Shown here one piece after another: positions 52,789 through 55,034 of a stretch of DNA of 64,000 bases; positions within the stretch are counted from its first letter, which is position 1; every line of letters begins with the position of its first letter. The DNA is from Candidatus Latescibacterota bacterium (GTDB lineage: Bacteria; JAAXHH01). The stretch is from the NCBI GenBank assembly GCA_022822725.1, contig JAJEAN010000007.1, positions 750,382 through 814,381 of the forward strand, in the 5' to 3' direction. A model generated the notes under the pieces. That model searched no databases. It saw only the letters and a program-made list of their open reading frames with translations, and had not been told where the DNA came from. Position numbers and translations under genes: made by a program.

Positions 52789-54468
52789 TCACGCCGCGAC
52801 CGCCCGGTTCCCGGCGTTCTGGTACAACGCTTGCCCCATGGCGCCCAGGCCGATGATGACCAGCAGCAGATTGATGACCCAGCCCACATAGGGCAGGCTG
52901 ACGGCGATCAGGACCAGCACCAGGCCGGCGAGCAGGGGCAACAGCATAGAACGGACGTCCCGTTGTTTCGGTCGCAGCAGCGCGTTGCCCAGGAAGTGGG
53001 CCACGACGATCTTGGAAACGTAAAGGCTCAACGCCCACGTGGCGGCAATGACCAGTCCGGCGGGCAACCCGATCAGCGTCACGGCGAGCACGACCGCCAG
53101 GACCGGCGTGGCCGTGACCAGCACGAACCCGAGCCCCGCGGAAGTGAGGATTCCGGTCAGGCTGTCCAGCGGCACGCGCCGGAGCGCGGGAATCGCCCAG
53201 AGCAACAGCAGGCCCGACAGGAACGCCGTGACCAGCCAGAGGGCTGTCCATGCAATGTTCCAGACGGACAGCATCCCATCCTCTTCCTCCTCCTCCTGGT
53301 CCGGCTGGGGAAAGTCCATGATGGTTTCGCCGGCAACGGTCGCGGCGGAATGCACCGCCAGGTTCCCCTCGTCGGGCAGCCTCACGTCGAGATTCCCGCC
53401 GATGGAAGCGGAAGACTGAACCGTTGCCAGCCGGCCGCCGAAGGTTACGTCCCGCATCACCGCGCCCGATATCGTCAGCGTACTGCCGAACACCGTGACG
53501 TTTCGGCCGATCGAACCGCCCACGTTGATGTTTTCACCGAACGCGAAGAGGTCTCCCTCGATCGTTGCGTCATGGCTGGAGCGTATCGACTGCCCGAATC
53601 CGTAGACGCTTTGACCGATCGAGTCTCCTATGCGAATGACCTGGCCGAACCCACCGAACCCGCCGCCCACCCGTCCGTCTGCCTCGATGGTCCTGCCGAA
53701 CGCGTAGATGTCCCCCAGGACCGCTCCGTTGATTTCGATCGACTGGGCGAAGACAATCAGGTCTCCTGTCACCTCGCCGTCGATCCTGACCGTGCGTCCG
53801 AAGGCAACGAAGGTGTCGTCGACGATCTCTCCGGCATTCACCGAGATGTTCTCGTCGGACCGTATTTCGATGGCTTCCGCGGGTTGGGCGTATCCCAGCA
53901 GCAGCAGCAACCCACCGAGCACGGCCAGCGCGCTGGCCGGCCTCCGCAACAGAAGGTACAGTGAAGCCAGCAGCATGATGAACCCGACAGTCAGTCCTAC
54001 ATTGCCTATCAGCGTAACCATGGTCGTACCTCCATTCTGGTAGTATTCGATGAAATACGCTCCGGTGCTGAACAGCATGGACAACTGTCCCGAAACGTTC
54101 AGTGGATTCAGCCACTCAATACTCCATGGAAGTTCCAGTCCCATCACCCAGCCGATTCCCACCCGCATCAGCGCCGCCAAGCCGATGACGAGTCCCAGCA
54201 GCTTCAACGTGTGGATGGGCGAAGGCGCGGAGACCGGAGCCGGCTGTGTTTCAAGAAGAAAGGCCTCGGCGTTACCCATGACTTCGAAGAGCGCGGCCCT
54301 TTCCCTTTGGAACGCATGCACGAGGCCCCGGCACCGGGGGCAGTTTACCAGGTGTGCGGTGAACGCGCGTGCTTCGGGCTCGGGCAACTCGCCGTCAGCA
54401 AAGGTCGAGCAGACGATTTCCGATGGACACGCGTCCTGGTGCACCGATTCGTTGGTCATGGTTGGCAT
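52789..54468 (-). CDS. Anti-sigma-like zinc-finger protein fused to bactofilin-like repeats and membrane helices
   Basis: A 559-residue protein. Residues 14-50 form a zf-HC2-type anti-sigma zinc finger (CSTFADGELPEPE, then HLVNCPRC, the HxxxCxxC form). Several transmembrane helices follow. Residues of about 195-370 are short beta repeats like bactofilins (EITGDLIVFAQSIEINGAVLGDIYAFGRTIEADGRVGGG). After an acidic spacer (PQPDQEEEEEDG) come four more helices. It is encoded directly after an ECF sigma gene, overlapping its end, so it very likely binds and holds that sigma at the membrane. Start 54468 or 54459; the latter gives an exact ATGA overlap. Confidence 0.85.
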   Translation of the reverse strand: MPTMTNESVHQDACPSEIVCSTFADGELPEPEARAFTAHLVNCPRCRGLVHAFQRERAALFEVMGNAEAFLLETQPAPVSAPSPIHTLKLLGLVIGLAALMRVGIGWVMGLELPWSIEWLNPLNVSGQLSMLFSTGAYFIEYYQNGGTTMVTLIGNVGLTVGFIMLLASLYLLLRRPASALAVLGGLLLLLGYAQPAEAIEIRSDENISVNAGEIVDDTFVAFGRTVRIDGEVTGDLIVFAQSIEINGAVLGDIYAFGRTIEADGRVGGGFGGFGQVIRIGDSIGQSVYGFGQSIRSSHDATIEGDLFAFGENINVGGSIGRNVTVFGSTLTISGAVMRDVTFGGRLATVQSSASIGGNLDVRLPDEGNLAVHSAATVAGETIMDFPQPDQEEEEEDGMLSVWNIAWTALWLVTAFLSGLLLLWAIPALRRVPLDSLTGILTSAGLGFVLVTATPVLAVVLAVTLIGLPAGLVIAATWALSLYVSKIVVAHFLGNALLRPKQRDVRSMLLPLLAGLVLVLIAVSLPYVGWVINLLLVIIGLGAMGQALYQNAGNRAVAA

Positions 54469-55034
54469 AGTCCGGTCAACTCCTCTCGCAATCGTCTCCT
54501 GGCGCGGTAAATCAACGTCGCCACCGTGTTCCGGTTCAGTTTGAGCGTATGGGCGATTTCGTCGTAAGTGAACTCGTTGTAGTAGGCCAGTACGAGCGGC
54601 ACGCGGTACCGGTCCGGGAGCGACTGTATCGCCGAACGTACCCGGTCTCCCTTTTCCGCCCGAACCATGGTCTCCAGCGTATCCTCGGAGACCTTCGACG
54701 GGCCGACCTGGTCGGGATCGGCGGATGCATAGAAATTCACCTCGCGGTTTCGGCGCCGCAACCGGTCGAGACAGTGGTTGGTCGCGGTCTTGAGCAGCCA
54801 GTTCAGGGGCGACTTCGTCGCGTCCATGTTGGACCGGTTCCGGTATGCCCGGAGAAAGACTTCCTGGGTCGCGTCCTCGGCCTCGTAAACGGACTTCAGG
54901 AGATATCTGCTAAGTGCGAGAATCCGCCGGTAATGCGTCCGGTACGTCTCGTCGAACTCGAATCCCGTTGCGCTTTCGCCGCTCTCGGTCGTGTTCACAA
55001 CCCTACTACGAATGGCGGAACGAGATAGTTTCAT
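54456..55034 (-). CDS. ECF-type RNA polymerase sigma factor
   Basis: A 192-residue sigma-70 family protein with region 2 (FDETYRTHYRRILALSRYLLKSVYEAEDATQEVFLRAYRN) and region 4 (LPDRYRVPLVLAYYNEFTYDEIAHTLKLNRNTVATLIYRARRRLREEL). It directs transcription in response to an envelope signal released by its anti-sigma partner, encoded immediately downstream and overlapping. The first 22 residues are poorly conserved and the start could be internal. AGGAA precedes the ATG at 55034. The target promoters are unknown. Confidence 0.92.
   Translation of the reverse strand: MKLSRSAIRSRVVNTTESGESATGFEFDETYRTHYRRILALSRYLLKSVYEAEDATQEVFLRAYRNRSNMDATKSPLNWLLKTATNHCLDRLRRRNREVNFYASADPDQVGPSKVSEDTLETMVRAEKGDRVRSAIQSLPDRYRVPLVLAYYNEFTYDEIAHTLKLNRNTVATLIYRARRRLREELTGLCQP

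Follow-up and report, generated by a model that had tools for sequence, protein, structure and literature searches.

A predicted zinc anti-sigma factor fused to a bactofilin-like beta-solenoid membrane protein beside an ECF sigma gene of Candidatus Latescibacterota

Why should the partner of an ECF sigma factor carry a beta-repeat segment between two sets of membrane helices? ECF sigma factors are a main route of bacterial signalling, and the signals of many of them are unknown. In the window, the 64,000-nucleotide stretch of a Candidatus Latescibacterota genome analysed here, the open reading frame listed for such a sigma gene (54456-55034, minus strand) has directly downstream of it a frame of 559 codons (listed as 52789-54468, minus strand), which a sequence-only reading took for a zinc-finger anti-sigma fused to bactofilin-like repeats. 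The sigma product matches sigma-70 region 2 (Pfam, 8e-16) and region 4 (Sigma70_r4_2, 2.5e-14), with no match to region 3; by the definition used, regions 2 and 4 without region 3 in about 180-190 residues, it belongs to the ECF factors, as that reading had it. The features of the locus are these:

Positions 55005..55033, minus strand: probable ECF-type promoter of the sigma/anti-sigma operon, TGAAACT-N16-CGTAGT, within the 5' end of the listed sigma frame (genus conservation and pattern searches).
Positions 54456..54998, minus strand: ECF sigma factor gene, likely GTG start.
Positions 52789..54459, minus strand: fused anti-sigma / beta-solenoid membrane protein, likely start Met4 (listed frame start 54468).
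Positions 54331..54429, minus strand: zinc anti-sigma motif C14-x24-H39-x3-C43-x2-C46.
Positions 54145..54219, minus strand: predicted transmembrane helix 1, residues 84-108 (hydropathy; model helix 84-103, low confidence).
Positions 53944..54027, minus strand: predicted transmembrane helix 2, residues 148-175 (hydropathy; model helix 148-175, low confidence).
Positions 53872..53940, minus strand: predicted transmembrane helix 3, with PAEA (residues 196-199) at its end; probably once the signal peptide encoded by the ancestral third gene.
Positions 53305..53871, minus strand: beta-solenoid domain of 17-residue turns, residues about 199-388, predicted extracytoplasmic.
Positions 52819..53259, minus strand: C-terminal multi-helix membrane domain, residues 404-550 (hydropathy; conserved with unfused relatives).

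The fused product, 556-559 residues long by choice of start, consists in order of a zf-HC2 domain, three predicted N-terminal membrane helices, the beta-solenoid and the C-terminal membrane domain. Its zf-HC2 match in Pfam (residues 22-47, E 1.4e-7) scores 31.9 bits, over the cut-off of 22.2, and across an alignment of 10 copies the ligands C14, H39, C43 and C46 are invariant and C20 is variable; the proposed zinc finger is supported. The solved proteins closest in sequence include 3hug_B and the anti-sigma factor DdvA (8rlz), both reached through the zinc domain. Class I zinc anti-sigma factors (ZAS; RsiW, RslA type) share this layout: an N-terminal H-x3-C-x2-C domain, a gene that directly follows and overlaps that of an ECF sigma, and membrane helices next. 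The fusion has the C...H-x3-C-x2-C motif of the class, its gene overlaps the sigma gene by ATGA in the window, and the sigma gene is adjacent in all congeners. The zinc domain is predicted to bind the sigma factor and to inhibit it. Unlike the class, the window protein continues in a C-terminal extension made of the apparently signal-peptide-derived helix, the solenoid and the multi-helix membrane domain. The text of a survey of class I anti-sigma groups (PMC7406223) makes no mention of bactofilin or cytoskeletal domains.

Hydropathy places helices near residues 84-108, 148-175 and 177-193, followed by a long polar segment and a C-terminal helix cluster at 404-550; hydrophobic segments do therefore stand before and after the repeats, as first noticed. 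The Arg-rich loops, RRP after helix 2 and RRVPL after the first C-terminal helix, fit the topology that we predict, with the N-terminus in the cytoplasm and the repeats outside it. An extracytoplasmic solenoid is also predicted because the unfused relatives described below have signal peptides. Modelled alone with AlphaFold2, residues 196-392 gave a strand repeat every 17 residues (pLDDT 95.5, pTM 0.88), which turns the suspected beta-repeats into a confidently predicted solenoid of about 10 turns. In the AlphaFold model of the full-length protein it is the repeats that are confident, with the N-terminal domain and the helices at a pLDDT of about 30-60.

All 11 sampled congeners have the fusion, one of them on an interrupted contig, and the frame is intact in the 10 aligned full-length copies, which are 61-84% identical. 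These genomes are MAGs of Candidatus Latescibacterota or 'Gemmatimonadetes', and their isolate names suggest an association with sponges. The fusion is absent from the four relatives of the same family or order, and a search of about 970 further genomes with solenoid profiles showed no other among the loci inspected; the domain order is as unusual as had been supposed. The long frames of L215, L224, L239, L240, L242 and L168/L169, in other phyla, turned out to be frames extended upstream or single proteins with a signal peptide, and not fusions. Apparent fusions in G012-G014 (L108, L107 and L106, respectively) have a signal peptide, solenoid repeats and a C-terminus resembling an outer-membrane barrel (Omp85 match of 1.2e-6 for L107), with no anti-sigma; they look like a similar repeat placed on a different envelope protein.

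Outside the genus, relatives of the solenoid are separate proteins composed of a signal peptide, the solenoid and a C-terminal membrane domain. Many of their genes stand alone and others are preceded by an ECF sigma gene, as in the Acidobacteria MAGs L036 and L037 and the Verrucomicrobia MAG L038. Between the sigma gene and the solenoid gene there is often a second gene of 140-270 codons, with membrane helices and often a zinc motif. Sequence comparison thus reveals a recurrent operon of three genes, in the order sigma, membrane anti-sigma, and a protein with signal peptide, solenoid and membrane domain; the fusion unites the last two. Next to other ECF sigma genes, the same fusion is found in all congeners sampled, and in the other genomes its parts occur as separate genes. 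A sigma gene was nearby in 46 of 133 solenoid loci from three samples, a count that is not independent, since L074 seeded the search alignment and related genomes are included; in all 46 it lay upstream on the same strand, never downstream and never on the opposite strand. In the phylum of G144, 9 of 10 genomes encode a solenoid protein, and a sigma gene plus a frame with a zinc motif precede the solenoid gene in 9 of 9. Of the second-gene domains scanned, 6 of 13 matched zf-HC2, presumably with the window's own among them.

Since an ATGA overlap links the second gene to the third in several operons (read for L221 and L229), we infer that a single small indel could have fused them. Among the relatives outside the genus that were examined, L221 is the one that the solenoid half of the fusion matches best (2.5e-43). 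L221 lies third in an unfused operon of sigma, zinc anti-sigma and solenoid genes; the second gene of that operon matches the N-terminal part weakly (4e-4), and its sigma matches at 1.4e-19. The best matches of the window sigma are module sigmas as well (L021/L074, L083, L248, L249), and of the 17 module genomes, 9 have the module sigma as its top match, where the number of ECF genes per genome would lead one to expect about 2.6. By these matches, the sigma/anti-sigma/solenoid module looks partly co-inherited. Exchange of its parts is likely too, because solenoid relatives with no sigma nearby (L204, L212) score nearly as high as L221. The majority of the closest solenoid relatives lack a nearby sigma, so the solenoid protein would also have a role independent of it. 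In L041, L179 and L180 the sigma gene directly overlaps or precedes the solenoid gene, and no anti-sigma is recognised in between; here the solenoid protein or some unseen protein may be the regulator.

Some solenoid proteins of these operons, placed by their sequences at L046, L088 and L078, carry an extra N-terminal domain: STN (secretin/TonB N-terminus) in two, and a sugar-binding domain of glycosyl hydrolase family 2 in one. The NCBIfam matches were confined to flanking extra domains in relatives. By their family assignments, the additions hint at contact with the wall or with glycans.

How the operon is switched on is suggested by the DNA at its head. The motif TGAAACT-N16-CGTAGT (55033-55005) is strongly conserved across the genus, and the DNA upstream of it is divergent. 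In 10 of 11 genomes the strict pattern has a single match, always at the start of the sigma gene; the reversed pattern, used as a control, occurs nowhere in the 11, and at zero mismatches the 64-kb window holds the sigma-start copy only. ECF promoters of the sigma-W kind have TGAAAC at -35 and CGTA at -10, which the site resembles. Because the listed ATG at 55034 falls inside this conserved site, the true sigma start is probably the GTG at 54998, which aligns with the ATG of sister species and would probably leave a very short leader or none. The anti-sigma probably starts at the ATG at 54459 (Met4), whose ATGA overlaps the sigma stop. As a conserved ECF-type promoter-like site precedes the sigma gene, the sequence suggests that the operon is autoregulated. 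A wider search for the regulon used the relaxed pattern TGAAACT-N14-17-CGTA and found several matches per genome, somewhat more than its reversed control; the recurrent ones have a spacer of 14 and look like conserved coding sequence, and we claim no further targets from them.

The computed results, namely the domain content, the conserved zinc ligands, the solenoid fold, the reappearance of the parts as separate genes and the promoter-like site that is confined to the sigma start, are the basis from which we infer sigma binding, topology, sensing by the solenoid, the release mechanism and the signal. We now propose, as the reading that is probably correct, that the ECF sigma is held by a membrane-anchored zinc anti-sigma that absorbed its operon neighbour, and that the solenoid is an envelope sensor controlling release of the sigma. 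The N-terminal zinc domain would bind the sigma in the cytoplasm; three helices would span the membrane, the third having once been the signal peptide of a separate protein; and the solenoid, outside the membrane and anchored by the C-terminal domain, would be the sensing arm. An envelope signal would alter the state of the solenoid through a ligand, contact with wall or membrane, self-assembly or proteolytic access, upon which the zinc domain would free the sigma. The freed sigma would use the conserved promoter to transcribe its own operon, and might transcribe other genes as well. The link from envelope to transcription raised by the sequence-only reading is then a plausible one. Fusion and three-gene recurrence in several phyla would tie a large set of bactofilin-resembling proteins to a specific regulatory role, and they point to a little-studied envelope-sensing switch. 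A bolder form, to which we give little credence, has the bactofilin-like solenoid self-assemble or engage the wall outside the inner membrane, so that its assembly state directly gates the ECF sigma in a widespread switch; if true, envelope architecture itself would be the signal, and the fusion of the sponge symbionts would render the coupling covalent.

The fusion argues for joint action of the solenoid protein and the anti-sigma, and it leaves sensor versus output unproven. A membrane-tethered anti-sigma factor is expected to take extracytoplasmic input, and every full-length congener has retained an intact fusion at the identities given above. Both points tell against the main rival, in which the solenoid protein is an output, an envelope protection made by the sigma response, that became fused through the overlap of operon genes, with sensing located elsewhere. 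We hold this to be unlikely; in its favour, solenoid proteins often occur alone, with no sigma, ATGA overlaps ease accidental fusion, and some operons carry a gene for the DUF4097 'Toastrack' domain, which is tied to envelope stress (PMC11237479). Fusion and recurrence together offer a concrete test of whether membrane-anchored solenoids sense the envelope or protect it.

The work on Toastrack also holds the nearest published idea, that beta-helical, membrane-linked proteins feed an operonic sigma factor (PMC11237479). The resemblance of these Lia-type envelope-stress modules to ours lies in beta-helical proteins encoded in membrane-linked operons, some with a sigma gene, and in the DUF4097 genes of some relatives of the window module. 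In sigma-solenoid operons of other phyla, Pfam identifies such genes at L058 (1538-2593) and L062 (3467-4537), and L082 looks alike. The window protein itself has no Pfam match to PF13349 (Toastrack), whose matches are confined to the neighbouring genes of L058 and L062. Toastrack is moreover predicted to be intracellular (PMC11237479), whereas the window solenoid is predicted to lie beyond the cell membrane and has an anti-sigma as its partner. A search of titles and abstracts on bactofilins or polymer-forming proteins together with anti-sigma or ECF sigma factors, which left the ECF group classification outside its scope, found no description of the module, and we provisionally regard it as new.

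The junction helix raises a further alternative, that the fusion is a polyprotein in which signal peptidase cuts after PAEA199 and restores the two ancestral proteins. The end of helix 3 is indeed signal-peptide-like: a conserved A/S/V-x-A motif puts A, S or V at -3 and an alanine, A199, invariant in the 10 aligned copies, at -1, and the junction is colinear with the signal peptides of unfused relatives. However, it is uncommon for an internal signal-peptidase site to follow a third helix, and with unfused genes existing elsewhere a cleaved fusion would gain little; we judge such processing improbable.

There remains the bactofilin label. Bactofilins (PF04519; BacA 2n3d, Thermus 6rib) share with the window protein a short-turn beta-solenoid, for which turns of 17 residues are expected, and a weak sequence relation: in a profile search with the solenoid, BacA 2n3d was the best match (E 0.0017). 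The Pfam Bactofilin match of the fusion (E 0.0042) stays below the curated cut-off, at 17.7 bits, or 19.8 for the fragment, against 27.9. Foldseek against the PDB returned beta-helices, none significant (best E 0.05), with bactofilins 2n3d and 6rib at E about 1.1-1.2 and low probability. Bactofilins are cytoplasmic, whereas topology prediction and the signal peptides of unfused relatives place the window solenoid outside the cytoplasm, with about 10 turns and membrane helices on both sides. We therefore reject membership of the family and keep the distant relation; of the original label, the fold and a remote kinship stand, and by sequence and model the repeats form a solenoid that is like a bactofilin without demonstrably being one. 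That the repeats are a polymerising bactofilin whose polymer state the anti-sigma reads, as the earlier reading had it, is very improbable: the profile match to BacA, the weak Pfam match and the 17-residue turns favour it, but the family cut-off, Foldseek and the predicted location stand against it, as does a separate, typical bactofilin encoded in the same genome (PF04519, 1.1e-20). Bactofilin genes usually lie beside a gene for an M23-type peptidase, and that typical gene (L093, 3510-4941) adjoins one that by eye resembles a membrane-anchored peptidase of this type.
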